DNA of 38,952 nucleotides, taken from positions 1-38,952 of the forward strand of contig JAHJQL010000083.1 in assembly GCA_018819065.1 (NCBI GenBank), in the 5' to 3' direction. A program made the translations under genes and the position numbers. Shown piece after piece: positions 1,132-24,432 of this stretch. The stretch's first letter is position 1. The number at the start of each line of letters is the position of its first letter. The notes beneath the pieces are model-generated. The model made no database searches and was not told the origin of the DNA. It saw nothing but the letters and a program-made list of their open reading frames with translations. Origin of the DNA: Nanobdellota archaeon (GTDB taxonomy: Archaea; Nanobdellota; Nanobdellia; Woesearchaeales; GCA-2686295).

Positions 1132-2502
1132 TTAGAAAAATCTCTTGAGCTTAAGAAACATCTTCTTCCAACCTTTAATATGTGTTATGTGCTTGAATAT
1201 GTAAAACCATCTCTTTGGATGAATATAAAACTTAAACAATAGTTTCCGCTGGTATCTTTTTAATTCTTCAAATGATAAGTTTTTATCTTCAAATGCCCTG
1301 TTGTTGTAATAGTCAAACTTTGAAAAATCATTTGATATCTTGTACTTTTTCTTCATTGTCTCTAAGAGTTTTGTACCTGGAAGAGGAGTAGCTATACTGG
1401 CAGTTATCTCTGTAGCATTAAGAGAAACTGCAAATTTTATTGTCTGCTCAATCTCTTCTTTAGTCTCAGTTGGTGCTCCGAGCATAAAGAAGCAAAGACT
1501 TTTAATTCCTATCTTGTTAAGGTTATCAATTGCAACAGGAACATCTTTGAGTTTTATCCCTTTCTGATAAATCTCATTAAGTATTCTTTGAGAACCAGAT
1601 TCTACACCTATATGAACTATCCTCAAACCAGAATCATACATCATTTTGACTTCTTTTAAGTTTTTTAATGTATTGACTCTGACATTGCAAGCCCACAACA
1701 AACCCAATTTTTCTTTTTTGAGCAGAGAGCAGAATTTTTTAACCCAATCCTTGTTTATATTAAAAGTATCATCCTGTAAAAAAAAAGCTTGTATAGAAAA
1801 CTTTTTCTTCAAAATCTTAAGTTCATCGATAACATTCTCTGGAGAACGATGCCTCACAACATCTCCAAACAGCGCTCTAAGAGTTGGTTGACAAAAAGAA
1901 CAGTTATAAGGACAACCTCGAGAAGCAATAATATTTGCTCCTTTTATATTAGGGTTATAACTATCAAATATGTGCCACAAATTCAAATATTTATTCATAT
2001 CAACCAGATCAAAGTCAGGATATTCAAGTGAGTCAAGATTTTGAATGAAATCTCTTTTTGGTGTTTTCAACCACTCAGTTTTATTTTTAAATATAATACC
2101 ATTTACATTTTCAAAATTTCTGGTTTCAAAGTGATCCAGAACATCTTTTATTGTAGTCTCTCCCTCTCCCAAGACAATCAAATCAGAACAATTCTTAACA
2201 GACTCGGGCATCACAGTAGGATGTGGACCGCCCATCAAGACAAAAAAACCCATCTTCTTTGCAATCTTTGCAATCTTGATAGCATCATTACACATCAAAG
2301 TATCAACATAAATTCCGACTATATCTGGCTTATCTTTCCTGAAACGCTCTTTAATATGTTCAAATGATATATCAAAAGTTGTGTCAAGAACAAAAACATC
2401 TGCATCCGTGTGTTTCTTTAAATATGCAGCAATACTACAAATACCTATAGGAGAATCTCCTGTCTTATGCTTCATCCTGGGAAAAACAAGCATTAACTTC
2501 AT
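1132..2502 (-). CDS. B12-binding-domain radical SAM enzyme
   Basis: 456 residues with the two-domain layout of cobalamin-type class B radical SAM enzymes. An N-terminal Rossmann-like B12-binding domain covers about 1-150, with MGGPHPTVMPE at 90-100 and the LGEGE loop at 111-115. The SAM barrel begins at the cluster motif SRGCPYNCSFC: Cys197, Cys201 and Cys204 are the CxxxCxxC ligands of the [4Fe-4S] cluster that cleaves S-adenosylmethionine. Further on are LRIVHIGVESGSQRIL and FFMLGAPTETKEEI, standard barrel motifs of the family. The canonical DxHxxG cobalamin-ligand motif is absent, as in many members. These enzymes typically methylate or rearrange unactivated carbons; the substrate cannot be read here. 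It is transcribed divergently from the rest of the island through a 67-bp shared promoter region. Confidence 0.9.
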   Translation of the reverse strand: MKLMLVFPRMKHKTGDSPIGICSIAAYLKKHTDADVFVLDTTFDISFEHIKERFRKDKPDIVGIYVDTLMCNDAIKIAKIAKKMGFFVLMGGPHPTVMPESVKNCSDLIVLGEGETTIKDVLDHFETRNFENVNGIIFKNKTEWLKTPKRDFIQNLDSLEYPDFDLVDMNKYLNLWHIFDSYNPNIKGANIIASRGCPYNCSFCQPTLRALFGDVVRHRSPENVIDELKILKKKFSIQAFFLQDDTFNINKDWVKKFCSLLKKEKLGLLWACNVRVNTLKNLKEVKMMYDSGLRIVHIGVESGSQRILNEIYQKGIKLKDVPVAIDNLNKIGIKSLCFFMLGAPTETKEEIEQTIKFAVSLNATEITASIATPLPGTKLLETMKKKYKISNDFSKFDYYNNRAFEDKNLSFEELKRYQRKLLFKFYIHPKRWFYIFKHITHIKGWKKMFLKLKRFF

Positions 2503-2529
2503 AAATTCATTACAGATAAAAACTAGGTT

Positions 2530-2551
2530 TTATAAAAGTTTATAAAATAAC
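2530..2551. promoter_or_regulatory. Divergent promoter region with tandem TATA-like boxes
   Basis: Two TTTATAAAA-type boxes (about 2530-2539 and 2541-2550) lie between the leftward radical SAM gene (start 2502) and the rightward 150-residue gene (start 2570). Both sequences are close to palindromic and could serve either strand. Spacing of about 25 nt to the ATG at 2570 predicts a nearly leaderless rightward transcript. Confidence 0.5.
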
Positions 2552-2569
2552 CACTATTATTTTATTGAA

Positions 2570-3022
2570 ATGGAAACAGACACCATAAAAAATAATAAAA
2601 ATCTCTTGAGACTCATAGATAAAAGTGAAAGTATAAAGTCTCACCCAATAATGAACATCTCGATGCTTGATGATTCTAAAATCAACATTAGAATTCAATC
2701 AAGAGAAGAACAATCACCTCAAAACAAGTCTGTCTGGCCAATAGAAAACAATTTGATAGTTGAGAGGGCAAAATACGAAAATAACAATCTTTACGTCATA
2801 GTCACAAATGTTTACATAGAACCTATAAGAATAATTTCTACAGGGGTCAAGTACACATTAAATGATTCTGAAAGCATCGATTTTAAACCTGTAAATATAC
2901 AAATATCTCCTGGTGAGCTAAGAATAACAATACCATGCCCAAAGGGCAACCCTACAAAATTTGTTATAAGGACAGAAAATCAGACGGCAGTTGGAAATAT
3001 GAGAAGAGATTTGAACTGGTAG
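2570..3022 (+). CDS. Free-standing IRTExxTAVG domain protein, unknown function
   Basis: A 150-residue soluble protein without signal or membrane segment. Residues about 66-145 look like a small beta-sandwich and match, by eye, the last ~75 residues of the radical SAM protein at 10016-11734. Shared landmarks in order are a 'TGVKY/TGVRY' strand, a 'SPGELRI/KPGRNKI' turn and the signature FVIRTENQTAVG versus FIIRTEDVTAVG. The N-terminal 60 residues are polar and probably flexible. It is the first rightward gene of the radical SAM island. A domain found both alone and fused to an enzyme of the same cluster usually acts as a recognition, carrier or substrate module, but which of these applies is inference. 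A precursor/substrate role is also possible. Confidence 0.75.
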   Translation: METDTIKNNKNLLRLIDKSESIKSHPIMNISMLDDSKINIRIQSREEQSPQNKSVWPIENNLIVERAKYENNNLYVIVTNVYIEPIRIISTGVKYTLNDSESIDFKPVNIQISPGELRITIPCPKGNPTKFVIRTENQTAVGNMRRDLNW

Positions 3023-3083
3023 CTAAAATTTTATAAATTAACAAAATTTATTGTCTTTGAGGGGAAGATTCAGTTCATATAAA

Positions 3084-4775
3084 ATGTTATACTTGCCAAA
3101 ACCACATTCTTGCCATCTGCAGTGGCACATAACAGAAAAATGTAATTTTCGCTGCACACACTGCTATCTAAACGAGGATTACATAAAACAAGAGCTTTCA
3201 ACAGAAGAGTGTTTTGCAGTTGTTGACAACTATGTGGATTTTTGCAAGAAAACAGATATTAAGCACAACAGGAACATATCACTAACAGGGGGAGAGCCTA
3301 TTCTAAAGAAAGACTGGTGGACTATACTTGAATATATTGGTAATTATAAAAAGCGGGGTTTTGTTGATAAGATTTGTGTGATGACTAACGGGTCAACCGT
3401 TGATGATAACATAATAAAACGATACATCAGTTTAGGAGTTAACTATATGCAAATAAGTGTTGAGGGAATGGAAGAGATAAATAATCAGATAAGGGGAAAA
3501 GGTAACTTCGAGAAAGCTATAAATGGGGCAAAGATGATAATAAAAAATGGTGTTCCATTATCATTCTCACTAACCCTAACAAAGAAAAACAAACAAGATG
3601 TAGAATCACTCGCCAGACTAGCTGCAGAGATAGGTGTAAGAGGAATGGGTGTAGGTAGAATTGTTCCTATTGGAATGGGAGCTCAGATGAAAGAATTGAT
3701 GCTAACACCACAGGAAACCAAAGAATGGTTTTTAGAATGCGAGGGAATCAATGAGAGATTCAGAAGAGATAATATAAACTTCAGAGTTGATTTTCACTGC
3801 TCAGATGGCATGTATCAAGCATTAAGACCAGGAGCAAACAGTCCCCAGACAATACACGGATGCTCAACTCCCTTTGATGTTTTCACATTGTTACCAAATG
3901 GAGACGTTGTGCCTTGCAGACGACTTCCAATAGTCGTTGGCAACATAAAAAAACAGAGTTTTATGGAGATACACTACTCAAGCAACAAAATCTGGAACCT
4001 TAAAAACTGGGAGAACAGAGCTGATGTATGCAAGACTTGTGATAGTCTAAACCAGTGCAGAGGAGGAGGTATGTGCATAGCGTATGGTTACTTTGGAACA
4101 CCTTACGCTCCTGATCCTGACTGCTGGAAAGCGTTTCCAGATGGATTTTCAAAAAAAGAATATCAAGAAGAACCTGATTCTGACAAGATAACTTATTTCA
4201 AGAGATACATAAACAACTTAAGGTTTGACCTAAACCCTATTCTTGAAGAAGAAAAAAAGAAGAAGATAAGAAAGATAAAGATAGACAAAATTGGCAAAGT
4301 AAAAGATTCAGAAATCGACGTGTTGGTCTTTGACCTGGAAGAAAAAGATTTGAATGTTGATAGCGGAAATAAAATCATTAAGTTTCTTCATGGTCTGGAA
4401 GAAAGAAAAGTGAATTTTAGAATTGGCCAGAAACTTCCGCCTTGCATCTTTGACGTGCAGTCAATAAAAGAATTCAAATTCAAGATGCCTAATAACTGCT
4501 TTGAATGCTCAAACATGTTTCACTTAGAGAATAAGAGGATAATCTTTTGCAATGACAGAAAAGGTCCAGATTTAAAATTCATGAATAGCGCAGAACAAAT
4601 AGGAGAATATGTGAACTTGTTAAAAGATTACGATGAACCAGCATATTTCAAGAAATGCCAGACCTGCGTTCATAAGATAAGAGGAACCTGTTTCTACCTG
4701 AAGAACTGTCGATTAAAACCAAAAGAACCAAAAGAAGATCTTAAGTTAATCCAAGTGACTGCTTGCGGATGTTAA
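3084..4775 (+). CDS. Radical SAM/SPASM enzyme with Cys-rich C-terminal domain
   Basis: A radical SAM enzyme with three parts; numbering is from an upstream TTG at 3051. The barrel starts at ITEKCNFRCTHCY (Cys31, Cys35, Cys38) and has SLTGGEPI at 77-84. A SPASM auxiliary-cluster domain follows at about 270-360, with Cys271, 289, 327, 330, 336, 342 and 358. A C-terminal domain (about 420-553) contains KLPPCIFD, NNCFEC and CxxCxxKIRGTCFYLKNC, and is shared with the enzyme at 6269-8182. The chain ends in ...VTACGC. SPASM enzymes commonly modify peptides or proteins; the substrate is unknown here. Start choice: a TATA box (3029-3038) would place transcription start near 3058, so I prefer the ATG at 3084 to TTG 3051. 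GAGGGG at 3059-3064 is a rather distant ribosome binding site. Confidence 0.9.
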   Translation: MLYLPKPHSCHLQWHITEKCNFRCTHCYLNEDYIKQELSTEECFAVVDNYVDFCKKTDIKHNRNISLTGGEPILKKDWWTILEYIGNYKKRGFVDKICVMTNGSTVDDNIIKRYISLGVNYMQISVEGMEEINNQIRGKGNFEKAINGAKMIIKNGVPLSFSLTLTKKNKQDVESLARLAAEIGVRGMGVGRIVPIGMGAQMKELMLTPQETKEWFLECEGINERFRRDNINFRVDFHCSDGMYQALRPGANSPQTIHGCSTPFDVFTLLPNGDVVPCRRLPIVVGNIKKQSFMEIHYSSNKIWNLKNWENRADVCKTCDSLNQCRGGGMCIAYGYFGTPYAPDPDCWKAFPDGFSKKEYQEEPDSDKITYFKRYINNLRFDLNPILEEEKKKKIRKIKIDKIGKVKDSEIDVLVFDLEEKDLNVDSGNKIIKFLHGLEERKVNFRIGQKLPPCIFDVQSIKEFKFKMPNNCFECSNMFHLENKRIIFCNDRKGPDLKFMNSAEQIGEYVNLLKDYDEPAYFKKCQTCVHKIRGTCFYLKNCRLKPKEPKEDLKLIQVTACGC

Positions 4776-4802
4776 AGTGAAAAAAATGAGGAGCATTAAA
4801 TA

Positions 4803-6254
4803 ATGGCCGATGTTGTTTTAGTATTCCCAAAATCAAGCTTTTTAGAAAAAGCGATGAAACACGTGTACTTACCATTAGCACTTCTAAATAGTGTTGTCTT
4901 TGTAGAAAAAGAGTATTCTGTAATAATTATTGACCAAAGAATTGATAATCACTGGAAATATAAACTCTTAAAAGAACTTAAAAAGAAGCCATTATGCATA
5001 GGAGTGACTTGTCTTACAGGAGAACAGATAGAATATGCATTAGAAATATCAAAGATTGTTAAGGAAGAATCAGACATTCCAGTTGTATGGGGCGGCGCAC
5101 ATGCTAACATTCTTCCTGAGCAAACCCTGCAGCATGAATATATAGACTTAGTAATACAAGGAGAAGGAGAAATCTCTTTTTATGAACTTGTAAAAGCACT
5201 TGATAAGAAAACACCGCTTAAAGATGTCAAAGGACTGTGGTATAAGGATAAAGGAGTGATAAAAAGTAATCCTCCTGCAAATATTGTTGATTTGGAGTCC
5301 CTGCCAAGACCCCCATACCATCTTCTTGACATGAAAAATTATATTCTCAAATTCGGTGATAAAAAAATGTTCATACTTGAGACTGCGCGTGGTTGTCCTA
5401 ACAGATGCACGTTCTGCTTTGTACAAAACACTCCAATACAAAGAAGATGGAGAGCGCTGAGTCCTCAAAAGACTGTAGAGAACATGATTTATGTAAAGGA
5501 GAAGTTCAAAGTTGACGGTGTTGAGTTTCAAGACTTGACATCGTTTGTTGACCTTCAAAGAATGAAAGAAATAGCAGAACTAATGATAAGAGAAAAAGTT
5601 GACTTGTTCTGGAACACGTGCGGAAGAGTAAATGATGTATTAAGGATGGACTCAAAATACATAGATTTGATGGAAAAGAGCAACCTCAAAAGATTCGGTG
5701 TAGGAGTGGAATCGGGTTCTGAGAGAATTCTTAGGATGATAAAGAAGGGAATAACCATAAAACAAGTATTGGCAGTTTCAAAAAAACTCTCCAAGACAAA
5801 AATTGAACCTATTTATTCATTCATGGCTGGATTTCCAACAGAGACACAAAGAGAATTAAGGATGACCTCAAACCTCGTAATTCGTCTCTTAAAAGAAAAT
5901 CCTGTTGCAAAAACAACTATTATACACTGTTATAGACCAATACCTGGAAATGAACTATTCAACGTCTCAGTCAAACATGGTCTTAAACCTCCAACGACTC
6001 TTGAAGAATGGAGCAAGTACACGATGGAATGGATAAATCACCCTTGGCTTTCAAAAAAGATGCAAAAAGAGATAAGCGCCTTGAACTTTCTATCTTTATT
6101 CCTTGACAAAAAATATGAAGAAGTTGATGATCCTCTTGTCAGAGCATTCGCTCAAGTTTACAAGCCGCTTGCATGGTACCGAGTAAAAAACCATAACTTC
6201 AACTTCATGATAGAGCCTTACTTCAAAAAGATATATGTCAGTTTAAAAAAGTAA
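4803..6254 (+). CDS. B12-binding-domain radical SAM enzyme
   Basis: 483 residues. A B12-binding Rossmann domain spans about 1-150 (VVWGGAHANILPE at 94-106, IQGEGEISF at 118-126). The SAM barrel opens at TARGCPNRCTFCF with Cys198, Cys202 and Cys205. Barrel motifs include GVEFQDLTSF, KRFGVGVESGSERIL and FMAGFPTETQREL. The ~130-residue region after the barrel lacks cysteine clusters, unlike the neighbouring enzymes. The start is well defined: GAGGAG at 4788-4793 precedes the ATG by 9 nt. It lies 27 nt after the SPASM enzyme in the same direction and is probably co-transcribed. The family includes methyltransferases and ring-forming enzymes acting on lipids, antibiotics and peptides; the specific reaction is not readable. 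Confidence 0.9.
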   Translation: MADVVLVFPKSSFLEKAMKHVYLPLALLNSVVFVEKEYSVIIIDQRIDNHWKYKLLKELKKKPLCIGVTCLTGEQIEYALEISKIVKEESDIPVVWGGAHANILPEQTLQHEYIDLVIQGEGEISFYELVKALDKKTPLKDVKGLWYKDKGVIKSNPPANIVDLESLPRPPYHLLDMKNYILKFGDKKMFILETARGCPNRCTFCFVQNTPIQRRWRALSPQKTVENMIYVKEKFKVDGVEFQDLTSFVDLQRMKEIAELMIREKVDLFWNTCGRVNDVLRMDSKYIDLMEKSNLKRFGVGVESGSERILRMIKKGITIKQVLAVSKKLSKTKIEPIYSFMAGFPTETQRELRMTSNLVIRLLKENPVAKTTIIHCYRPIPGNELFNVSVKHGLKPPTTLEEWSKYTMEWINHPWLSKKMQKEISALNFLSLFLDKKYEEVDDPLVRAFAQVYKPLAWYRVKNHNFNFMIEPYFKKIYVSLKK

Positions 6255-6268
6255 GAATAATAAATAAA

Positions 6269-8182
6269 ATGAAAATAGTTATCAATCTCTGTCCTCCGTA
6301 CCAAACAGGCACAATGCCTCCTCTAGGATTAGGATACTTAAAAGCAATTTTAAAAGAAAAGAAGCATCAACCTATAATAAATGATATTAACACTTCAGTT
6401 TTTCTAGACAATAAAGAGCTATTCGAAGAATTACTAGATGAGTGTAAAGAATACCTATCTGAAAACAAATTCCTCATTTATACTTACAGCTTAAAGAAGT
6501 TATTAGTATTCTTGTACCCAAAATTATTTCTAAATGACAAAAATGAAATAATAAAAAGAATTAATGCAGACATAAATATCCAAATCAAAAATATTTTAGT
6601 AAAAAATCCTGATGTTATCTGCTTCTCAGTTTTTTTCACAAATATATATTATACTGCGATGTTGGCAAGAAGATTAAGAATCGAATCAAACGCGAAAATC
6701 ATATTTGGAGGACCTCTTTGCAATGAAAAAAATGCAGATATATTCCTTAAATTAGGTCTTTGTGATTATGTTGTAAAAGGAGAAGGAGAGATCAGTTTTC
6801 AAAAATTAATTGATAACCTGAAAAATGATTATAAAAAAAAAAGCAATCTCACAGGGGTTTCATATACCCAAGGAAAAGAGATTATCCACACATCAAATTC
6901 AAAATTAATAACTGTTTTAGAAGAAATTCCTCTCCCAGAGTTTGACAATAAAAACTATGAAATATTGCCTATTATTACCAGCAGAGGTTGTATAAAGAAA
7001 TGTTCTTTTTGTGCTGAAACAAATCAATGGGAATATTACAGAAGAAGGAAAATTGATGAAGTTGTAAAAGAGATTAAAAAAAGAATAAAAGAGAATAACA
7101 CAAGAGAATTTGATTTCTGTGACAGCCTATTAAACGCATCTAATGATTACTTTGAAGAATTATGTGAAAAAATAACACCTCTAAGAATAAGTTGGAGCGG
7201 GTTTTTAAGATGTGAAAAACTAAATAAAGAACTTATTAGGAAAATAAAAAAGTCGGGTTGTAAACAAATAGCATTTGGAATTGAAAGCTTTAACCAAGAA
7301 ATATTAGACAGCATTAACAAACAAACCAAAACTGAAGAGATGATGCAAATTCTTAAAGATTTACATGAAGAAGGAGTTGATTTCATGATAAACCTTATCA
7401 TTGGTTATCCTGGGGAAACAGAATATTTGTTCTTTAAAAATCTTGAATACACACTAAAAGTGATTAATCAGAATAAAGATTTCTTCTTTATAAACACGGA
7501 GATGTTTAAGCTGTATCCGGGAAGCAATATTATGAATAAGCCTGAAAAATACGGCATAACTCTAATAAGCAAAAAAGAACCACTCCCAAAAGAACTAAGT
7601 TTCTTGCAGGAAGATTACAACAATTTTTTTACCGAGTGGAAAGTTAACAAAAAACCATCACCACAAGAATTTTATGAGCGAGTAAAATTCATGACGCTAA
7701 TGTCCACGTCCACGAGCAGAAGAACATTCTATAAAAAAGAGTTCATAATAATAAATAATGATGATATTGAAAATTTGATATACTTTGAAAAAAAACTGGA
7801 TCAGAAGAAAGAATATTTTTTCGAATTTAGAATTAAGGGAGAATTCATAAACCAAGAAATAGGATTAAAAATAATAGCTTTTCTTGATGTCCTAAAAGAA
7901 AAGAATATAGATTATAAGATAAATAAAACACTTCCTCCATGCATATTTGATAAGAAACCAATCAAAATTTCGATTCCGCAGAATTGCTTTGAATGTAAAG
8001 AAGTTTTTATTGATAGTGGAGAAAAGATTTCATTATGTTCAAGAAAAATGAATCAATTCTTTAAAGAAAATAAAACTCCAAAAAGCCCTTATTTTAATGA
8101 AAATAATTTAATTTTTAAATGCGAAAAGTGTTCTTCTTGCAGATACAGAATTAGAGGACTGTGTAATTATATATATTGTTAG
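6269..8182 (+). CDS. B12-type radical SAM enzyme with Cys-rich C-terminal domain
   Basis: 637 residues. The N-terminal B12-binding domain (about 1-215) includes FGGPLCNEKNADIF and VVKGEGEISF. The radical SAM barrel starts at TSRGCIKKCSFCAE (Cys241, Cys245, Cys248) and carries QIAFGIESFNQEIL and LIIGYPGETEYLFF. The last ~140 residues repeat the module of the 3084-4775 enzyme: TLPPCIFD (554-561), QNCFEC (571-576), a Cys near 590, then CEKCSSCRYRIRGLCNYIYC at the very end. The terminal CxxCxxC...RGxC pattern resembles half of a SPASM motif, so it may bind an extra iron-sulfur cluster. It sits 14 nt after the previous gene, and its stop abuts the next start. Same operon; substrate unknown. Confidence 0.9.
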   Translation: MKIVINLCPPYQTGTMPPLGLGYLKAILKEKKHQPIINDINTSVFLDNKELFEELLDECKEYLSENKFLIYTYSLKKLLVFLYPKLFLNDKNEIIKRINADINIQIKNILVKNPDVICFSVFFTNIYYTAMLARRLRIESNAKIIFGGPLCNEKNADIFLKLGLCDYVVKGEGEISFQKLIDNLKNDYKKKSNLTGVSYTQGKEIIHTSNSKLITVLEEIPLPEFDNKNYEILPIITSRGCIKKCSFCAETNQWEYYRRRKIDEVVKEIKKRIKENNTREFDFCDSLLNASNDYFEELCEKITPLRISWSGFLRCEKLNKELIRKIKKSGCKQIAFGIESFNQEILDSINKQTKTEEMMQILKDLHEEGVDFMINLIIGYPGETEYLFFKNLEYTLKVINQNKDFFFINTEMFKLYPGSNIMNKPEKYGITLISKKEPLPKELSFLQEDYNNFFTEWKVNKKPSPQEFYERVKFMTLMSTSTSRRTFYKKEFIIINNDDIENLIYFEKKLDQKKEYFFEFRIKGEFINQEIGLKIIAFLDVLKEKNIDYKINKTLPPCIFDKKPIKISIPQNCFECKEVFIDSGEKISLCSRKMNQFFKENKTPKSPYFNENNLIFKCEKCSSCRYRIRGLCNYIYC

Positions 8183-10006
8183 GTGAAAATGGTAAACTTC
8201 ATGATTAATTATGAATGCACAGAAGCCTGTGATTTCTGCTTTCAAAAAGGAATTAAGTTCGGCTCGATGATGAGTTTTGAAGACTTTAAGAAAGCAATAG
8301 ATTGGCTTGAAAGGTTAGAGTTATTCCAAAAACCTGAAAACAGAAAGATCTCATTGATGGGTGGAGAGCCAACAATGAATCCGAAGTTAAAGCAAATGCT
8401 TGGATTCTTGAAAGAAAAGAACATAAAAGTAATAATATTCTCAAACTTCGTCTTTAACAAAAAAAAGATTGACTTTTTTGATTCATCTGTAATCAAAGGA
8501 TTTGTAGGAACATACAATCCTAAGAGTTTCTACAGAAAAAATGAGCACACACTTGTTGAAGAGAACATTCAAGAACTCAAAAAACGAGGTTTTGAAGTAA
8601 AGCTGAGTTACAATATAACAAAGAACAATCTTGACTACAATTATGTTCTTGATGCTTGTGAAAGACACAATCTTAAAGTATTAAGATTTTCAACAGCGTT
8701 TCCAAATCCAGACTATACAAATGATTACTTAAACTTTGAAGACTTAAAGGATGTCGGAAAAGAAGTAATTTCTTTTGTCAGAGAATCTGTCAGGAGAAAC
8801 ATAAAACTAGACCTTGACTGCACAATACCTCTATGCATTCTTGGTGATGAAAAAAACATCTTGTTCTTTTTAAAAAATGTAAATGCAAAAAATCTGATAT
8901 GCAGATCAGTAATTGATGTGAACCCGGACTTGTCAGTTTATTATTGTGTTCCAAGATCAAAAGATGCAAGAGTTAAATCAATATTAAGTTTTAATAATCT
9001 AAAAGAGATAAATGAAGTTTTTGACATTCAAAACCAGTTTGAGAGAAAAGAACTATTTGCGTTTCCAGAATGTGAGAATTGCAAGTACTTGATAAGAGGT
9101 CTTTGTCAGGGAGGATGCTTATCTTTGAAGAAACGATTTGGTATCACTTTAAACAATAAGTTAAAAGAAAAAATTGTTATAGGAGTAAAGACTTGGGGTG
9201 GAATAGGAGATGGATTACTTGCAACACCTGCGATTAAAGCCTTAAAAGATAAATATCCAAAATCTAAGATTAGAGTGATGTGCAATGAGAATCATAAAGA
9301 GATATACAAGAACAACCCATCAATAGATTTCTTATCGATTTTGCCTGATGAATTAGCAATTAAGAACATAAAATCACAAAACATCTTTGAAACCAACTAT
9401 GGAAAACTAAAACCAAGCATAAGCTTTGATGAACACGCAACATCAATAATAGGAAGAATGCTTGGAGTTGCAGTAAAAGATAATAACCTCCTAATATTCT
9501 TAACTAAAGAAGAGGATGAGAACGCAAAAAAGCAACTTTCAAAATATAAGAATACTATAATTATTCATATAACATCCAAATGCTCAAAAAACCAAGAATG
9601 GATGACTGAAAAATGGGAAGAGCTGGTGAAGAAAAACTCAGATATCACATTCATACAACTAGGTCTAAAAGACGAGCCAGCCGTGAAAGGAGCTGTTGAT
9701 TTACGGGGAAAAACAAGTATACGAGAAGCGATGGCTTTGGTGAAAAATGCCAAAGGATTTGTTGGTGTTGATTCATTTCTCGCACACGCAGCAGCAGCTT
9801 TCAAAACTTCTTCAGTTGTCTTGTTTGGACCATCAAATCCCACAATCTGGGGTTATAGTCAGAACATCAATATTTACAAGGATTTAGAATGCTCTCCATG
9901 CATCGATACACTTGGAAACGGAGTGTGTCCTTACGACAAGAAATGTATGAGATTAATAACTGTTAAAGAAGTGAGCAAGAGTATTTCAAATATTATAAGA
10001 AGATAA
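8183..10006 (+). CDS. Radical SAM/SPASM - glycosyltransferase family 9 fusion
   Basis: 607 residues joining two enzymes. Residues about 1-320 are a short radical SAM barrel with ECTEACDFCF (Cys12, 16, 19) and LMGGEPT (59-64), followed by a SPASM-type end: Cys240, Cys255, then CENCKYLIRGLCQGGC (297-312). Residues about 330-607 are a GT9 (heptosyltransferase-like) domain. It begins VIGVKTWGGIGDGLLATPAIKAL and contains GFVGVDSFLAHAAAAF (526-540) and VVLFGPSNP. It ends with the four-Cys pattern CSPC...C.....C (570, 573, 582, 588) usual in this family. GT9 enzymes transfer sugars from nucleotide donors. I see no frameshift or internal stop, so the fusion appears genuine. The GTG at 8183 abuts the preceding TAG; an ATG at 8189 is an alternative start. 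Confidence 0.88.
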   Translation: MKMVNFMINYECTEACDFCFQKGIKFGSMMSFEDFKKAIDWLERLELFQKPENRKISLMGGEPTMNPKLKQMLGFLKEKNIKVIIFSNFVFNKKKIDFFDSSVIKGFVGTYNPKSFYRKNEHTLVEENIQELKKRGFEVKLSYNITKNNLDYNYVLDACERHNLKVLRFSTAFPNPDYTNDYLNFEDLKDVGKEVISFVRESVRRNIKLDLDCTIPLCILGDEKNILFFLKNVNAKNLICRSVIDVNPDLSVYYCVPRSKDARVKSILSFNNLKEINEVFDIQNQFERKELFAFPECENCKYLIRGLCQGGCLSLKKRFGITLNNKLKEKIVIGVKTWGGIGDGLLATPAIKALKDKYPKSKIRVMCNENHKEIYKNNPSIDFLSILPDELAIKNIKSQNIFETNYGKLKPSISFDEHATSIIGRMLGVAVKDNNLLIFLTKEEDENAKKQLSKYKNTIIIHITSKCSKNQEWMTEKWEELVKKNSDITFIQLGLKDEPAVKGAVDLRGKTSIREAMALVKNAKGFVGVDSFLAHAAAAFKTSSVVLFGPSNPTIWGYSQNINIYKDLECSPCIDTLGNGVCPYDKKCMRLITVKEVSKSISNIIRR

Positions 10007-10015
10007 GATTTTAAC

Positions 10016-11734
10016 ATGGCTAAAAAAATACTTTACATACACCCTTTTTGCAATAAAAACAATTCTGATTTCGTTTTCTTGCCCGGAGGAATAGTTGGAG
10101 TTATAAATAATCTTAGAAAAAGTGGATTTGAAGTTGTAGGAATCAATCTCCCATTAGAGATGAAACTTAATCCTAAAGTGAATATAAAAGAACTGATAAG
10201 AAGATATGATTTTGAAATAGTTGTAATGGACTGTCACTGGTATTATTTTATTCACGGAGTCCAAGAACTGGCAAGAATCTGTAAAGAAATAAATCCTGAA
10301 TGTATAATTATTATAGGAGGATTCTCAGCGAATTTCTTTAGAAGAGAACTGTTAAAACACACCAAATCTTTAGATATCATAATAAAAGGAGACTCTGAAA
10401 GCCTACTGCCAAAACTATGTAACCAACTATTTTCAAAAAAGAAAAAAGGACTAAGAAACATTCCTAATATAGCCTACAAGAACGTGTTTGGAGTGATTAA
10501 AGACAACAAAATCTCAGTGTTTGACAATAATATAGATGAGTTTGATTATGTTGACTTGACGTTCATGCTCCACTGGAAAGAATACCTGCATTTTCAGCCA
10601 GGAGAAGAAGGTCCTGGAATATCACAAAGATTCAATCAAGAAAGGTTTTTTTACCTGCCAACACAAAAAGGCTGCATTAACGCTTGTCCATCTTGCGGAG
10701 GAAGCACAACAAGCTACAGATTATTATCAAATAAGAAAGGATTTTGCGTACGATCCCCAAAAAAAATAATTGAAGATATAACAAAGATAAATTCTCTGGG
10801 CATCAATAATATAATGATATCATGCCAGTCCAAATTCAATAAGTGGGTGCTAATCCTTAAAGAATTAGAAAAAAGAAAGGTTTTTGTCAACATGATGTTT
10901 GAAGACTGGAGCCTGCCAAAAAAAGATTTTGTGAAACAAATGATATCCTACTCTAAGAATAAAGAATCAGGGTTCTTAATATCACCGCTTTGTGGAAATG
11001 AAGACTTAAGAAAAAAGAATGGGAAGATGTTTACCAATGAGGAGCTTTTTGAATTTACAAGATTAATATCTCAGTCAGAACATTCATATGCAACCGTTTG
11101 GTTTTCACCAAACCTTGTTGGAGCCACAAAAAAATCTTTTGAAGAAACAATACTATTAGCAAAAGAGTTAGAAAGAATGAACTTGAATTCAAACAAAAAC
11201 AACATACAAAACCTAGTTGGGTCAATGGAACTCGACTTGACAAGCGACATGTATCAACGACCTGACTTTTATAATCATACAGAAAAGTTATGGGATTTTG
11301 ACTATTTTATAAGTTTTTTAAAGGGAAAAAAAGAAGGTAAGAATCTCGGAAACATGTCTTATATTAGTCAAGAAATAAGTGTTTCTGATTCTAACGAAAT
11401 GATAAATAGATTCAACAAAGAAATGCAATTATTAAAAAAAAGAATTTTATTCTCAAAAAAAGAAGGGCACTTCTCTGGTGAAGAAGACTTAGAGATTGAG
11501 AAATATGAATTAAAAGACGAATTCATCGATGTATATATCAAAAATAATTCCGAAAGAGAAATAAATTTATCAGAAACAGGCGTTCGATACATCGGAGAAG
11601 ATAAATCAGTGTTTGAAAAAACAAAACAAGTTCTAAAACCAGGACGTAATAAGATAAGAATAAATTTCAAAAGAAAAATCTGGCATTTTATTATAAGAAC
11701 AGAAGACGTCACAGCAGTAGGATTAAAAGTATAA
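10016..11734 (+). CDS. B12-type radical SAM protein with fused IRTExxTAVG domain
   Basis: 572 residues. A Rossmann-like N-terminal domain holds VVMDCHWYYFIHG at 69-81 and IIIIGGFSANFF at 97-108. A divergent radical SAM core opens at PTQKGCINACPSCGG (Cys220, Cys224, Cys227). The spacing CxxxCxxC is kept, but the usual aromatic before the third Cys is replaced by Ser, so activity is probable but less certain than for its neighbours. The last ~75 residues form a beta-rich domain ending FIIRTEDVTAVGLKV, matching the free 150-residue protein at 2570-3022. It lies 9 nt after the fusion gene and is the last radical SAM gene of the rightward island. A TATA box follows, so the next gene may start a new transcript. 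Confidence 0.82.
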   Translation: MAKKILYIHPFCNKNNSDFVFLPGGIVGVINNLRKSGFEVVGINLPLEMKLNPKVNIKELIRRYDFEIVVMDCHWYYFIHGVQELARICKEINPECIIIIGGFSANFFRRELLKHTKSLDIIIKGDSESLLPKLCNQLFSKKKKGLRNIPNIAYKNVFGVIKDNKISVFDNNIDEFDYVDLTFMLHWKEYLHFQPGEEGPGISQRFNQERFFYLPTQKGCINACPSCGGSTTSYRLLSNKKGFCVRSPKKIIEDITKINSLGINNIMISCQSKFNKWVLILKELEKRKVFVNMMFEDWSLPKKDFVKQMISYSKNKESGFLISPLCGNEDLRKKNGKMFTNEELFEFTRLISQSEHSYATVWFSPNLVGATKKSFEETILLAKELERMNLNSNKNNIQNLVGSMELDLTSDMYQRPDFYNHTEKLWDFDYFISFLKGKKEGKNLGNMSYISQEISVSDSNEMINRFNKEMQLLKKRILFSKKEGHFSGEEDLEIEKYELKDEFIDVYIKNNSEREINLSETGVRYIGEDKSVFEKTKQVLKPGRNKIRINFKRKIWHFIIRTEDVTAVGLKV

Positions 11735-11744
11735 ACTTACAAAA

Positions 11745-11754
11745 ATATTTAAAC
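11745..11754 (+). promoter_or_regulatory. TATA box of the membrane glycosyltransferase gene
   Basis: ATATTTAAAC lies about 29 nt before the TTG at 11779. With this spacing the transcript would be essentially leaderless, which supports the TTG as the real start. Confidence 0.45.
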
Positions 11755-11778
11755 AATAAAAAACAAGCGTTTTCTATC

Positions 11779-14076
11779 TTGAAAAAAGCAAATGAATATT
11801 ATGTATTGGCAGCAATAATTGTAATCGCCGCAATACTGCATTTTCATAACCTTGGAAAACCAGCGCTTCACACTGATGAGGCAGAGGTTTATCTTGCTGC
11901 TCAAAACATATTTGATTCTGGAGTTCCAAAAGGTTTTTACAGGGTTCCATTCTATGAAAACGCATACCTATATTCATCTAATAGCTCAATGTATGAATTT
12001 GCACCCACAAACTATTACAAGACTGAGCTAGTGCTTAGAAAGGGATGGGTCACATATTACATTGTCGCGTTCTTTTCTTTGTTTGGAAAGGATGAGTTCT
12101 TGCTGAGGTTTCCATTCGCACTTATAGGATTAATCTCTATTTTTGTATTTTACAAGTTAGGAGAATTGCTATTTAACAAGAGAACAGCGCTTATTGCATC
12201 ATTTTTCTACGCTGTAAGTCCGAGCTTGTTGTTCTATGATCGGATGGTGAGGTATTATTCTCCAATGATTTTGTTTATTCTACTATCAACATATTTTTTC
12301 CTAAAAGCTTACAAGAGCGGAGACAAAAAAGACTATTTTTTTGGAACAGGCGCACTTGTGCTGTTATTTTATACAAACATCCTAATATTTGCATCGTTCT
12401 TGACAGTGATAGTCTTGTTTGGATTGATAAGAAGAGTTAAGATAAATAAAACAATTATACAATCAGCGTTAATTCTCGTAATAACGACCGTTCCTTGGAT
12501 TCTTGCAACTAGGTTTTTGAATAAAATAACTGGTGAGCCAAGCCACAACTTCTTTGCTTTAAAACCAGGGTTTATATTTCAAACAATAACTGCTGGGATA
12601 AGCGCTCAAGGGTTGCTTTACATATTTTTATGGGTTTCAGCAATGGTTTTATTGTTGAATGTTTTGATGAGAAGTAAGACTCCTAAAGTAATTCTTTGGA
12701 AAGAAGAGGAAACAAACAAGTTTTTATTGTTGTACATTGGTGTAATGATAATTATTCCTTTAATTCTTTCTCCACCAACATCATTTGAAGAAAAACTATT
12801 CCTGTCACTAACACCTTTTTTTCTGATATTGATAGCTAAAATGTTTGATTCAATCTTAGACATTTCAAAAAACAATTTTTTCAAATATGTGGTCTTTACA
12901 ATAATTATACTTGTAAGCTTTGTAAATGTTGGAAGTGTTTTTGGATATGAAAGCCACGACGCAATCTCTGCTAAGAAAATATTCAGCCTTGAAAAAGATG
13001 TTGTTTTTGAAGAGATTGATCAACTGATTAGAGATCACACATCAAATAATCCTTTGATACTAACAACTTCAGACCATTTCCCTTTGATGTTTTACACCAA
13101 CTTCTCTGTTCAGACTATCTGGGCTGTCAGGGAAAGCTTTATTGATAATTATGATGGTGAGTTAGTAATAATAGAAAAAGGGTTTGTCGAAGGAACATGC
13201 AACTTTTTCTATCAATATATAAATCCCTTTGAACGATGCGGGAATAATAAGAATTATTTGAACAAAGTCGTTGATTGTGAAGAGTTTGTGGTAGGAAAAG
13301 ACACAACAATTTATTTTTGCAAGGAAAAAAAGAGGTTTTTGGGAGGAAACCAGGGACTTTTCTTTTCAGACTTTCCAAAAGGAAGTCCGCCTGACTTTAT
13401 ATGGGATTTAGAGCCTTTTTCTGTTGCTTTGGATGTTGAGAATTGGGGAGAGATTGATGTTGATGATTTAAAAGTTGCATTTACAGGTGATTTTGCTGGA
13501 AGAGAATTTGACAGGACACAAGATTTTTTTGTATTTAACAAAACAATCCTTGGAAAGAAAAGAATAGATGGAAATACAGTGCAAAGCAAAGAACAATTTG
13601 AACTTGGAACATTAACTTTTAACCATAAACTATTAAACAAAAACCAGTATATAAACGCCAGCGTTATGATGTGCTATTCCTACAAGACCATAATAAGAGT
13701 AGATGTGTGCAAAGACTCTCTTGACTTGTGTGGACTTGACGTTTCAGGAGCGCCTGTTCAGATAGGAAACATCGCACACCAAGAACTTGACTTGAACTTC
13801 TCCATACATAATTCTGCAGAAGGAACTATTGGAGATGTAGATGCTTGTGGTGAAGAGAACTCTACAAAAAGAATCAAGGTCACAAGCGACTCATTTAAGT
13901 GTGAGCCTTTGAAGAATTCATTTAACTGTCAAGGAATTGAAAACAGGCTGAAAAAAGACGAGTCTTACTATATAACTATTAGTTATGACTACCAGCAGGA
14001 ATTCAAAAAAGGAATTCTTCTTAGAAGCAAGGAGAAAAATTCGTATGACTATGAATTATCGCGCAAGAATAATTAG
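11779..14076 (+). CDS. GT-C type membrane glycosyltransferase (PMT/ArnT-like)
   Basis: 765 residues. The first ~400 are a polytopic membrane domain of the dolichyl-phosphate-mannose/ArnT-like superfamily. The first TM helix (9-21) is followed by LGKPALHTDEAEVYLAAQ, where Asp33-Glu34 match the acidic motif of the first external loop that activates the acceptor in these enzymes. PSLLFYDRMVRYYSPMI and several further TM helices follow. The remaining ~350 residues are extracytoplasmic and Cys-containing (GTCNFFYQ, MMCYSYKT, SLDLCGLDVSGAPV), with Ig-like stretches of the sort common on DPANN surface proteins. Expected role: transfer of a lipid-linked sugar to a protein or lipid outside the membrane. 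TTG is the only plausible start. Its position after the radical SAM/GT9 genes suggests the same glycan pathway. Confidence 0.82.
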   Translation: MKKANEYYVLAAIIVIAAILHFHNLGKPALHTDEAEVYLAAQNIFDSGVPKGFYRVPFYENAYLYSSNSSMYEFAPTNYYKTELVLRKGWVTYYIVAFFSLFGKDEFLLRFPFALIGLISIFVFYKLGELLFNKRTALIASFFYAVSPSLLFYDRMVRYYSPMILFILLSTYFFLKAYKSGDKKDYFFGTGALVLLFYTNILIFASFLTVIVLFGLIRRVKINKTIIQSALILVITTVPWILATRFLNKITGEPSHNFFALKPGFIFQTITAGISAQGLLYIFLWVSAMVLLLNVLMRSKTPKVILWKEEETNKFLLLYIGVMIIIPLILSPPTSFEEKLFLSLTPFFLILIAKMFDSILDISKNNFFKYVVFTIIILVSFVNVGSVFGYESHDAISAKKIFSLEKDVVFEEIDQLIRDHTSNNPLILTTSDHFPLMFYTNFSVQTIWAVRESFIDNYDGELVIIEKGFVEGTCNFFYQYINPFERCGNNKNYLNKVVDCEEFVVGKDTTIYFCKEKKRFLGGNQGLFFSDFPKGSPPDFIWDLEPFSVALDVENWGEIDVDDLKVAFTGDFAGREFDRTQDFFVFNKTILGKKRIDGNTVQSKEQFELGTLTFNHKLLNKNQYINASVMMCYSYKTIIRVDVCKDSLDLCGLDVSGAPVQIGNIAHQELDLNFSIHNSAEGTIGDVDACGEENSTKRIKVTSDSFKCEPLKNSFNCQGIENRLKKDESYYITISYDYQQEFKKGILLRSKEKNSYDYELSRKNN

Positions 14077-14524
14077 CATTAGTGTAATCGTCATAATTGT
14101 TGTTTTAATAATTTTTAGTTCGAGAAATAAATTGTTTATACCTGAAAACAAGGTAGCTAACACAACTCGTTTGGAGGTTTCAAAACCTGATGAGTTAACG
14201 TCTTGTCAGATGGACTGCACTTTAAATGATGGAGTTTTTCATGAAGAATGCATTGGGTATAATGGGTGTGTTGATTCTTTATTCATAAAAGATAAGGGTT
14301 ATTGTGAGGATGATTCTGATTGTGTGATTGATCTTGGTTGTTGCTATGATACTTGTCAAGGTGGAGAATGCATAAATATTGATTATTGTGGTGTTTCAAA
14401 CAAGCAGTTTGTGCTTGCGCATGGTTTTAGCTGCAAGAACAACATAATCTGTAAAGAGAGAAAGAAATGCAGGTCATTTTCTGATGTTTCCTGCTTGAAT
14501 AATGTCTGCAGAATTGTTAGTTAA
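14045..14524 (+). CDS. Membrane-anchored Cys-rich small protein
   Basis: I choose the ATG at 14045 (about 159 residues), preceded by AAGGAG with GGAG at 14031-14034. An upstream in-frame ATG at 13985 lies deep in the previous gene and has a hydrophilic lead. The protein has one N-terminal membrane segment (ISISVIVIIVVLIIF) and an external domain with about 15 cysteines, including CEDDSDCVIDLGCCYDTC and a CxxNIDYC stretch. Such a pattern suggests a disulfide-bonded domain. It overlaps the 3' end of the GT-C gene by 32 nt and is probably translationally coupled to it. Function unknown. Confidence 0.65.
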   Translation: MTMNYRARIISISVIVIIVVLIIFSSRNKLFIPENKVANTTRLEVSKPDELTSCQMDCTLNDGVFHEECIGYNGCVDSLFIKDKGYCEDDSDCVIDLGCCYDTCQGGECINIDYCGVSNKQFVLAHGFSCKNNIICKERKKCRSFSDVSCLNNVCRIVS

Positions 14525-14835
14525 GTTTTTTTGCAATTAGTGTCAATCATCACATTTGTTTGTCCGGCTGGAAGTTTTATTTTGTGTGATAAATTTTTTG
14601 ATTCATAATTCTTTATCTCAAAAGAGTCTGAGAACAATTTTTGATCGTCTGTTCTTATCTTAACAGTACATGATAAGTTATTACTTGATGGATTTGTCGC
14701 CTTGTACTTTATGATGTCAAAGGCTCCTTCGTGTTCAAAATCAACATCTGTTATTTTCACATCATAGTTGTTTGTGCACGCTGTTAGAATCAAAGTTATT
14801 GATGCAAGAATAGCACATTTTATAAATAAGTTCAT
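14521..14835 (-). CDS. Small predicted lipoprotein
   Basis: 104 residues from the ATG at 14835; a TTG directly before it could add one residue. The N-terminus is a signal peptide ending in a lipobox-like ITLILTAC, so Cys20 would be the lipidated, membrane-anchored residue. The mature part (about 84 residues) is a single beta-rich domain with phrases such as YKATNPSSNNLSCTVKIRTDDQ, resembling FxxxNxxxxxxxCxVxI Ig-like domains. It is convergent with the Cys-rich gene, with a 4-nt overlap of the stop regions. Function unknown. Confidence 0.65.
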   Translation of the reverse strand: MNLFIKCAILASITLILTACTNNYDVKITDVDFEHEGAFDIIKYKATNPSSNNLSCTVKIRTDDQKLFSDSFEIKNYESKNLSHKIKLPAGQTNVMIDTNCKKT

Positions 14836-14900
14836 CAATTCTAAGTTTAGTTTCTATTGTTATAAAGTTTTCGTTTGAATGGAAAAACATAAATAGTAGA

Positions 14901-14998: not shown

Positions 14999-15454
14999 CT
15001 GACAGTCAAACAACAAATACAGGACTCTAGAAACAAGTTTTCTATTTACAAGAATATACAAATACCCTGCTACATTCTACAAGACAGAACACTAGCAGTC
15101 CTAGAATCAATAACAGAATACCTAAAAGAACAAAAAAACCTAAGCTACCACGACATAGCAGTCCTGCTAAACAGAGACGACAGAACCATATGGACAGTCT
15201 ACAACAGAGCAAAAAAGAAAAGAACCGCGACTGGAAAAGTCACTATTTCTAAACAACCAAAGATAAACCTACCAACCAAGATATTCCAAGACCGAACACT
15301 AGCAGTTCTAGAATCAGCAACAGAGTACCTAAAAGACAACAAAAAAATGACTTATCACCAAATAGCTGCTGCACTGCAAAGAGATGACAGAACCATATGG
15401 ACAACATATAACAGAGTAAAAAAGAAAAGGAGGCAGAATGGAAGAGCTAAGTAA
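14999..15454 (+). CDS. Duplicated helix-turn-helix DNA-binding protein with no canonical start codon
   Basis: An open frame runs from just after a TAG (14987-14989) to TAA at 15452-15454. It has no ATG/GTG/TTG before its final third, so I place the start at CTG 14999; AGGT at 14988-14991 and 14992-14995 could be weak ribosome binding sites. The ~151-residue product holds two copies of a ~45-residue unit. Each begins DRTLAVLES.TEYLK, continues (S/T)YH(D/Q)IA..L.RDDRTIWT.YNR, and ends in a basic KKKR tail. This reads as helix-turn-helix with DDRTIWT as recognition helix, similar in style to sigma-region-4/phage HTH folds. It overlaps the giant surface-protein gene by 17 nt and contains that gene's ribosome binding site. 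Likely an autoregulator of the operon through the upstream palindromes (inference). A start-codon mutation making it a pseudogene is the alternative. Confidence 0.68.
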   Translation: MTVKQQIQDSRNKFSIYKNIQIPCYILQDRTLAVLESITEYLKEQKNLSYHDIAVLLNRDDRTIWTVYNRAKKKRTATGKVTISKQPKINLPTKIFQDRTLAVLESATEYLKDNKKMTYHQIAAALQRDDRTIWTTYNRVKKKRRQNGRAK

Positions 15455-22286: not shown

Positions 22287-22297
22287 GAACGTGCATT

Positions 22298-23461
22298 TTG
22301 TTTTTACTAATAGTCTCAACTAGCGCAAGCGCTATTGGTGTTGGGCCAGTATTCACAAGGATTGATTTTGAACCAAACTTTGCCAAAGAATACGAGTTCA
22401 CTATATACAACAACGACAAGATAAACTTCAACGCAGAGCTAAGTATTAGTGGAGAATTAAAAGACTACATAACTATGGATACCACTAGCTTAGTTTTCAA
22501 AGCAGACGAAGAGTCAAAAACAGTTTCATTCACAGTAAACCTTCCAAGAGACATTCCTCCTGGAGAATACGAATCAAGAATTACCATAAAAGAAGCATCC
22601 GAGTCCAGCTCCATGATTGGAGCAGTAGCAGCCGTATCACACAAACTAACACTAACAGTTCCAAAACACGGAAAATACATCAAAATAACAACCATTAAAG
22701 ACGACAAAAAAATAGTTGTTACAATAAAAAATATTGGTTTAAAAGAAGTTGAAAAAATAGAACTAACAAACAACATATTCAGCGAAATAGACTCAAACAA
22801 TTATTCTAACATCATAAACAATTTATTGCCTGATCAAGATTACAACTTCACAATAAGCCTCAATCAAACATCAGGAATATACTCTCATAACATACTACTA
22901 AACTATGATGGGTTAATTAAGAACATCACCGAAACAATAATCATCGGAAGAATAAACATCACAATAAACAACCTAACAATCAAAAACTTCAAACTAGGAG
23001 AAATAAACCAACTAGACATCACACTAACAACTGATTGGAACCAACCAATAGACAATTTAATTGCAGAAGTAGATGTTTTCAAAAACAAAGAACTAATAAC
23101 CACTATAAAAGGCCCAACAACAACAATTGAAAAAAATAAAACTTTAGAATTATTCATAGACACAAAAGATTACTCTGAAGGAGAATACAAATTCGTAACA
23201 AAAGTTTTGAGAAACAAAGAATTAGTCTCACAAAAAGAGTTCTTATTAACACTCAAAAAAAGCGAAGTAGTTACACAGAAGAAACTCCCATTAGAAATCA
23301 TCATACTTTCAATAATTGTATTGGTCTTGGCACTAATAATACTACTATTTGAGAAGAGAAAAAAGAAGAAAGAAGAAACAACAACAAAAGAAAAAGACGA
23401 AGAAAAAGAAACACCAATAGAAGAAACAGAAAAAAATATTAAGACGGAAAAAAAAAAATAG
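22298..23461 (+). CDS. Membrane-anchored Ig-like surface protein
   Basis: 387 residues from TTG 22298, with AGGA 22285-22288 about 9 nt upstream. The signal peptide is short (FLLIVSTSASA), and the frame is closed by a TAA at about 22256, so the N-terminus is slightly uncertain. The external part has at least two Ig-like domains: FTIYNNDKINFNAELSISGE..., then NLPRDIPPGEYESRITIKE, then ITIKNIGLKEVEKIEL. A TM helix (about 331-351) precedes a highly charged Lys/Glu cytoplasmic tail. The first domain is clearly related to those of 24433-25605 and 25602-26024 (the 'G-E-L-K-x-Y-I/L-T' strand and 'P-x-x-I-x-P-G' turn). It follows the giant gene by 11 nt, so it is probably in its operon and may be a partner of that protein. 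Confidence 0.75.
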   Translation: MFLLIVSTSASAIGVGPVFTRIDFEPNFAKEYEFTIYNNDKINFNAELSISGELKDYITMDTTSLVFKADEESKTVSFTVNLPRDIPPGEYESRITIKEASESSSMIGAVAAVSHKLTLTVPKHGKYIKITTIKDDKKIVVTIKNIGLKEVEKIELTNNIFSEIDSNNYSNIINNLLPDQDYNFTISLNQTSGIYSHNILLNYDGLIKNITETIIIGRINITINNLTIKNFKLGEINQLDITLTTDWNQPIDNLIAEVDVFKNKELITTIKGPTTTIEKNKTLELFIDTKDYSEGEYKFVTKVLRNKELVSQKEFLLTLKKSEVVTQKKLPLEIIILSIIVLVLALIILLFEKRKKKKEETTTKEKDEEKETPIEETEKNIKTEKKK

Positions 23462-23466
23462 AAAAG

Positions 23467-23488
23467 TTTAAATATCAGAATATTTAAA
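23467..23488 (+). promoter_or_regulatory. Promoter with a perfect palindrome over the TATA box
   Basis: TTTAAATAT and ATATTTAAA form a perfect 9-bp inverted repeat separated by CAGA. The left half overlaps a TATA-like GTTTAAATA at 23466-23474. Transcription would begin near 23497, just ahead of the 76-residue gene at 23521. The dyad may be an operator or simply two TATA elements in opposite orientation. Confidence 0.45.
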
Positions 23489-23520
23489 GAGAAGTTAATA
23501 AAAAAATAGAGAATAAAAAA

Positions 23521-23751: not shown

Positions 23752-23768
23752 ATGAGGTATGAAACAAA

Positions 23769-24386: not shown

Positions 24387-24396
24387 AAACCACAAA

Positions 24397-24420: not shown

Positions 24421-24432
24421 AATTCTTTAAAA

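Follow-up and report, generated by a model that had tools for sequence, protein, structure and literature searches.

The radical SAM island at positions 1132–14076 of the window, by which we mean the whole 38,952-nucleotide stretch of Nanobdellota DNA that we analyzed, is linked in related genomes to genes of the His-Xaa-Ser (HXS) system and co-occurs with them. We give a little better than even weight to the reading that the island supplies accessory maturation and glycosylation steps to an enlarged HXS system, whose target would be a giant H-x-N-C repeat protein destined for the cell surface.

Pfam assignments and open reading frame (ORF) positions place genes for six radical SAM proteins within the island, together with those for one accessory-domain protein and one membrane glycosyltransferase of the GT-C type (Table 1). 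The original prediction had counted four B12-type enzymes, one SPASM enzyme, and one SPASM-GT9 fusion, together with the accessory protein and the GT-C enzyme, and Pfam, NCBIfam, and motif evidence agree. The CX3CX2C motif is present in all six radical SAM proteins. The ORFs are closely packed where they had been placed; the gaps, given as mostly 9–28 nt, measure 0–44 nt (28, 27, 14, 0, 9, and 44 nt between genes on the + strand, followed by an overlap of 92 nt). Two conserved ORFs, S179 and a gene for a small lipoprotein-like protein, had been omitted. As the source genome contains 51 radical SAM matches in 1.52 Mb, as well as several other clusters, gene density alone is weak evidence; in contrast, conservation of the set is strong evidence.

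Table 1. Genes of the island and its flank, by position in the window (G000 is the window's own genome)
Gene	Position	Strand	Protein	Remarks
B1	1132..2502	-	B12-binding radical SAM protein	Pfam Radical_SAM + B12-binding; CPYNCSFC motif
acc	2570..3022	+	Small protein, predicted beta-sandwich	Domain common to B4 C terminus
SP	3051..4775	+	Radical SAM/SPASM with extra C-terminal Cys-rich SPASM-like domain	Core member
B2	4803..6254	+	B12-binding radical SAM protein	Pfam Radical_SAM + B12-binding
B3	6269..8182	+	B12-binding radical SAM protein	Cys-rich C-terminal domain as in SP
SPGT9	8183..10006	+	Radical SAM/SPASM fused to GT9 (heptosyltransferase-family) domain	Pfam Radical_SAM + Glyco_transf_9
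B4	10016..11734	+	B12-binding radical SAM protein, TIGR04190-like	acc-like C-terminal domain in G000
GTC	11779..14076	+	PMT_2-type GT-C membrane glycosyltransferase, large C-terminal domain	Core member
S179	13985..14524	+	Cys-rich protein, membrane-anchored	Conserved immediately after GTC
Small lipoprotein-like protein	14521..14838	-		Conserved after S179
Adjoining surface-protein genes	15438..28071	+		Similar genes after island in G003, G004, G006

SP scored 82.8 bits against Pfam Radical_SAM and 38.6 bits against SPASM. It fell far under every curated NCBIfam cutoff, and its best scores were to SPASM models for peptides or cofactors and to peptide maturases of solved structure; the C-terminal half of its AlphaFold model is poor. 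The nearest solved relatives of SP are peptide- and protein-modifying SPASM enzymes, which we counted toward the HXS reading. B1, B2, and B3 each have a B12-binding domain and a radical SAM domain by Pfam. For B4, Pfam returned B12-binding only; TIGR04190, a B12/radical SAM model, matched residues 19–525, and the CX3CX2C motif is kept. Accessory domains are shared, as had been proposed: acc matches the C terminus of B4, and a second domain, Cys-rich and SPASM-like, is common to SP, B3, and the SPASM part of SPGT9.

We counted orthologs over 288 genomes of the order. True orthologs of SP occur in seven of the 288 and those of GTC in six, and full-length orthologs of SPGT9 occur in four. Because these fall in one and the same small group of genomes, with gene order mostly preserved, chance assembly is rejected, and the island is, by these sequence comparisons, an inherited set in DPANN archaea. 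The proposal that the genes work together thus survived the test for scattering of homologs across genomes: co-occurrence and co-localization are both seen, and SP, GTC, and SPGT9 are absent from two other species of the genus. acc immediately precedes SP in G001, G003, G004, and G007; in G006, it lies two genes upstream of SP. B2, which has no ortholog within the clusters of relatives, looks like a lineage-specific addition rather than a core member. The same may perhaps apply to B3, with an ortholog in G004 (63%), and to B1, whose one observed ortholog belongs to the cluster of G049 (40% identity; L015:15972-17372). A chance gathering of unrelated radical SAM genes would fit a genome so rich in them, and fits the lack of B2 in relatives' clusters, but the core genes co-occur, with their order kept, in as many as seven genomes belonging to two families. 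We give this explanation next to no credence; it is refuted for the core and possible for B2.

In relatives, the HxsB, HxsC, and HxsD genes of the HXS system directly continue the island, and island and HXS genes lie on one contig in G004, G006, G007, and G049. HxsB is found in six of the seven genomes with SP versus 53 of the 281 others (Fisher p = 4e-4, uncorrected for genome relatedness); in G003, the seventh, a fragment of HxsC lies where a contig ends. In G000, the HXS genes and a repeat gene are on a separate contig, C18, outside the window, and linkage to the island was not seen there. HxsB on C18 scored 435.6 bits against TIGR03978 (cutoff 370). Against TIGR03976 (cutoff 50), HxsD scored 51.5 bits on C18, 56.4 bits in G004, and 46.5 bits, just under the cutoff, in G049. 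The HxsD-like protein comes close to its own cutoff. HxsC is related to TIGR03977 (101 bits; cutoff 267.9) and to the HxsC4 model NF038332 (110.8 bits; cutoff 500), and by these models is not a member of either. The left end of C18 carries the C-terminal part of the radical SAM gene that immediately precedes acc in relatives, and then unrelated sequence. C18 and contig C79 were not joined; C79 does not, in its first bases, carry on from the left end of C18.

The original prediction had found no nameable pathway for this combination, a view that gives way to HXS as the pathway frame, known but uncharacterized. The reference for HXS is Haft and Basu (2011), cited in PMC9062424, a 2022 survey that still treats maturation by HxsB/HxsC as putative. 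In the literature, we came across no account of an HXS product, and our searches on HXS or radical SAM RiPPs in DPANN found nothing on such a system.

Long, secreted-type proteins consisting almost only of H-x-N-C repeats belong to the system in three genomes: G000, G007, and G049. H-x-N-C arrays were found only in these genomes, all three of which have SPGT9. The most complete protein has 976 aa and 101 H-x-N-C tetrads, with every cysteine used. The arrays have a common C terminus and a neighboring gene for an A24 (prepilin-type) peptidase, beside which the G000 repeat gene runs off the end of C18. In G000 and G007, every recovered Asn-Cys is also part of an N-C-S/T sequon. The arrays of these two genomes are without N termini, and the leader is visible only in G049, where the array is in one cluster with HxsD, HxsB, HxsC, and SPGT9. 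This leader is HxsA-like by profile (E = 4e-9), has no standard start codon before it, and scored 19.7 bits against NF038309 (cutoff 65). HxsA substrates combine His-Xaa-Ser repeats with a leader, whereas the repeats here are H-x-N-C and the leader is that of G049 only. Searches for the motif, the conserved C terminus, and an A24 neighbor did not find the repeat gene in G001, G003, G004, or G006, all of which have the island; contig ends may well be the cause. No small HxsA-type precursor was detected by profile in eight family genomes. We also considered acc, whose N terminus resembles an HxsA leader by eye, as an HxsA-type substrate, and rejected it: an HMM of 16 leaders scored none of six acc proteins above shuffled copies.

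The product had been left open as a surface glycan, a glycolipid, or a modified peptide. Because the island adjoins an HXS maturation set, with TIGR03978 and TIGR03976 above cutoff, and because a repeat precursor is part of the system in three genomes, the evidence favors a modified protein. The substrate would be an HxsA-like precursor in which a leader and a hydrophobic segment are combined with a very long H-x-N-C tail. As their HXS association suggests, HxsD and the HxsD-like protein may present the leader to HxsB and HxsC. From their families, SP and the SPASM half of SPGT9 could perform further radical reactions on the repeats, plausibly at Cys or neighboring residues, and the B12-type enzymes could methylate or otherwise alkylate carbon. 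Export would follow; the adjacent A24-type peptidase might trim the protein, the GT9 half would glycosylate it on the inner side of the membrane and GT-C enzymes on the outer side, and a modified, glycosylated surface polymer would result. Several findings count against this reading: in G000, HXS and the repeat gene are on a contig apart from the island; four genomes with the island yielded no repeat gene; a leader is visible in G049 alone; and HxsC falls short of its cutoff. In a bolder version, which we offer tentatively and think doubtful as a whole, several SPASM and B12 enzymes act by radical chemistry on each H-x-N-C unit of a ribosomal polymer of at most ~1,000 residues before the unit is glycosylated; the bifunctional SPASM-GT9 protein would couple the radical step to sugar transfer, and a giant glycosylated RiPP would serve as a cell-surface fiber.

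The adjoining surface-protein genes may encode partners of the island or its real targets. If targets, the H-x-N-C protein would not be the one modified, and HXS would be a neighboring, separate pathway. One of these genes (22298–23461) has relatives in exactly the six SP-bearing family members, with none in G002 and G005, and these relatives share a contig with island genes in G003, G004, and G006. Yet G049, which has no match to this gene, retains SP, SPGT9, GTC, and the repeat protein, and SP-like genes accompany HXS genes in two other families as well (G089 and G163). We regard these targets as unlikely.

A surface glycan or glycolipid, with radical SAM enzymes modifying its sugars or lipids and glycosyltransferases of the GT9, GT2, and GT-C types assembling it, has a somewhat smaller chance. 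Small molecules are the substrates of many B12 radical SAM enzymes, and the wider clusters hold several glycosyltransferases and a GT2-polysaccharide deacetylase fusion; against this product, SP is best matched by peptide or cofactor enzymes, and the set is tied to HXS and the repeat precursor. We find it improbable that the H-x-N-C protein, rather than being a substrate, binds metal at the cell surface while the radical SAM enzymes act on another target encoded nearby. Regularly spaced His and Cys residues typically serve as metal ligands, and the array could bind metal unmodified, but the leader of the G049 protein is matched by the HxsA profile, and HxsA-type proteins of the same order adjoin HxsB as presumed substrates.

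On the favored HXS reading, the HXS reaction becomes testable, because the system supplies a probable substrate, whose repeat is uniform and can be counted, along with a set of candidate enzymes. A single decorated surface protein may thus take up many genes in some very small archaea, and the system includes a radical SAM/SPASM enzyme and a GT9 glycosyltransferase joined in one polypeptide.

Compared with HXS (HxsA/HxsB/HxsC/HxsD; NCBIfam TIGR03976-TIGR03979, NF038309, NF038313, and NF038315), the system has HxsB and HxsD above cutoff, an HxsD-like protein, an HxsC-like partner, and an HxsA-like leader on the G049 precursor. It differs in its H-x-N-C rather than H-x-S repeats, a precursor of up to 976 aa, and the added conserved island of SPASM, B12 radical SAM, and glycosyltransferase genes. 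SP profile-matches solved SPASM maturases (SkfB, the 5wgg radical SAM protein, PqqE, and anSME) across the radical SAM and SPASM domains and, unlike them, has the extra Cys-rich domain common to B3. Among B12-dependent radical SAM enzymes, the nearest NCBIfam model to B3 is TIGR03975 (RiPP C-methyltransferases), below cutoff, and B3 matches TokK and CysS in the PDB; unlike these, it is fused to a SPASM-like domain. The GT9 domain of SPGT9 (PF01075, 60 bits versus a cutoff of 22; a partial match covering 90–238 of 247 profile positions) is like that of GT9 heptosyltransferases, from which the protein differs in its fusion to a radical SAM/SPASM enzyme. GTC has PMT_2, as assigned by Pfam, in common with GT-C enzymes of the PMT_2/AglB-like type, and its similarity to AglB is at most weak (E = 0.002 over 76 residues only).

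The original prediction placed six radical SAM proteins, a stand-alone accessory protein (acc) and a GT-C membrane glycosyltransferase (GTC) in one island, and the open reading frames, family models and motifs agree with it. Successive intergenic gaps are 28, 27, 14, 0, 9, and 44 nt. Several members share modules. In addition to the domain common to acc and B4, the Cys-rich C terminus of SP, the radical SAM/SPASM protein, recurs in B3, and both C termini resemble the SPASM part of the GT9 fusion, SPGT9. Thus, SP carries a SPASM-like domain in addition to its SPASM domain, and B3 is a B12 enzyme joined to a SPASM-like domain. The predicted fold of acc is a beta-sandwich, with modest scores to its nearest matches, an archaeal pilus subunit and FlaF.

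Features of the window and of related regions
Feature	Location	Description
B1, B2, B3, B4	window	B12-type radical SAM proteins
acc	window, 2570-3022	Stand-alone protein; same domain as the C terminus of B4
SP	window, 3051-4775	Radical SAM/SPASM protein
SPGT9	window, 8183-10006	Radical SAM protein with fused GT9 domain
GTC	window, 11779-14076	PMT_2 membrane glycosyltransferase
Surface-protein cluster	window, 15438-28071	2282-aa Thr/Asn-rich protein with Laminin_G_3 domain; several secreted-type proteins
Surface gene	window, 22298-23461	
MoxR gene set	window, 33326-36224	MoxR AAA ATPase, DUF58, VWA/BatA
Different enlarged HXS cluster	L113:4705-12763 (G089:C2)	HxsA-like, HxsD, HxsD-like, B12 radical SAM, HxsB, HxsC-radical SAM double protein, SP-like 705-aa protein
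HxsB-like gene	L115:11063-12331 (-) (G163:C5)	Lacks the CX3CX2C motif
HxsC-like row	L119 (NZBH01000011.1, archaeon ARS1414), 1191-9743	Five consecutive HxsC-like radical SAM genes, some double-length fusions

As the window's genome (G000) contains 51 radical SAM matches, the density of the island is weak evidence for a unit, and conservation is stronger. Other radical SAM clusters of this 1.5 Mb genome lie on contigs C32 (L018, L019), C34 (L020), C84 (L021), and C49 (L023); on C34, a three-gene set that includes two radical SAM proteins seems to have been duplicated in tandem. Of 288 genomes of the order, seven have SP orthologues scoring >630 bits (G000, G001, G003, G004, G006, G007, and G049). 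GTC is present in six of these seven, with all other genomes below 84 bits, and full-length SPGT9 orthologues occur only in G004, G007, and G049. SP, GTC, SPGT9, and HxsB are all missing from G002 and G005, two other species of the genus. Since the genomes are related, Fisher co-occurrence values overstate independence; more weight falls on the spread over two families and on the joint absences.

Gene order was compared in fetched regions, three of which were matched by coordinates to JACNFY010000020.1 (G004, DPANN archaeon NIOZ-UU113), JAHIUF010000081.1 (G007, Nanoarchaeota archaeon), and JAFCCF010000004.1 (G049). The order is acc-SP-B3-SPGT9-GT2-rSAM-B4-B12-GTC-S179-lipoprotein in G004, where S179 is a Cys-rich membrane protein; acc-SP-SPGT9-GTC-S179-lipoprotein in G007, where the contig also carries B4; and acc-(2 genes)-SP-GTC-S179-lipoprotein in G006. 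G003 carries acc-SP-B4 on one contig and GTC-S179-lipoprotein on another, G001 has acc-SP at a contig end, and a single G049 contig combines SP and SPGT9 with an orthologue of B1 and a shorter GTC. (The NCBI title of G049:C12 [L118], "Candidatus Aminicenantes bacterium", is probably wrong, as the assembly falls within the window's order in a genome search.) In the relatives' clusters, orthologues are limited to G004 for B3 and to G049 for B1. This leaves acc, SP, GTC, S179, and the lipoprotein as the core, which SPGT9 and B4 usually accompany. For the core genes, co-occurrence, joint absence, and gene order support the proposed single pathway well; B2 has no orthologue in the relatives' fetched clusters.

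In G004, G006, G007, and G049, HxsD, HxsB, and an HxsC-like protein of the His-Xaa-Ser (HXS) peptide-modifying system adjoin the island on the same contig. In the window's genome, the HXS genes are on contig C18, where HxsB and HxsD exceed curated cutoffs, an HxsD-like protein scores 40.1 against a cutoff of 41, and HxsC falls below its cutoff. In two genomes of other families, G089 and G163, HXS genes likewise have SP-like proteins as neighbours.

HxsB was found in 59 of the 288 genomes, frequently in the setting A24-like membrane protein-HxsD-HxsD_rel (an HxsD-like protein)-HxsB-small precursor. In the precursor, a leader such as KKKISSFLTKEDGKISKE is combined with a hydrophobic stretch and, in many cases, an SHGSHGSHGSW-like tail. 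The recurrence around HxsB across the order of A24 prepilin peptidase-like membrane proteins and small HxsA4-like precursors (L025-L047) suggests that HXS in these archaea includes an export and a leader-cleavage step. The HxsB-like protein of G163, possibly an inactive HxsB, is encoded beside HxsD-like proteins, an A24 peptidase-like gene, and an SP-like protein. The HxsC-like row of archaeon ARS1414 includes one member with an SPGT9-like radical SAM half and adjoins HxsB and a small HxsA. G030:C40 (L038) belongs to a genome with four HxsB matches, one reported with in-frame TAG and TAA, and carries a pair of small, nearly identical HxsA genes a short distance apart.

In G049, the reading frame adjoining HxsD spans 976 aa and combines an HxsA-like leader with 101 H-x-N-C tetrads, which take up all 101 cysteines. 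No in-frame ATG, GTG, or TTG lies before the leader; variation of the H, N, and C codons in the repeats is synonymous only, supporting the reading frame. The last 0.5 kb of C18 in G000 encodes HTNC[TS]H-type repeats, and HTNCSH repeats end contig C52 in G007. A motif search found such arrays only in these three genomes. All three proteins share the C-terminal end SI[TD]V[ST]NTE, and in each case an A24-type peptidase gene comes next. The Asn-Cys pairs are also N-C-S/T sequons in all repeats recovered from G000 and G007 and in 41 of 101 in G049. Contig ends cut the arrays of G000 and G007, and in G001 and G004 the contig with the HXS genes ends near HxsD; probably, the repeats break these assemblies.

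The original prediction left the product between a surface glycan, a glycolipid, and a modified peptide. The HXS linkage and the repeat genes make it most likely that the product is a repeat protein of an enlarged HXS system, modified and glycosylated. The main rival is that the island acts on the adjoining surface proteins, one gene of which (22298-23461) co-occurs with it inside the family and is absent from G002 and G005. Yet G049 lacks this gene and keeps SP, SPGT9, GTC, and the repeat protein. From the observed linkage, co-occurrence, family membership, and repeat genes, we infer that the system acts on the H-x-N-C protein as its substrate. HxsD and HxsD_rel would present its leader, HxsB, HxsC, SP, and SPGT9 would act on the repeats, and B12 enzymes may alkylate carbon. 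The GT9, GT2, and GT-C enzymes would glycosylate the protein, which may then reach the cell surface.

We found no description of the enlarged HXS form in the literature searched, although most subscription literature was outside reach and a description may exist there. The nearest solved relatives of SP are SkfB, 5wgg, PqqE, and anSME. One small precursor scores above the NCBIfam HxsA4 cutoff, so family libraries already cover the HXS system of these archaea.
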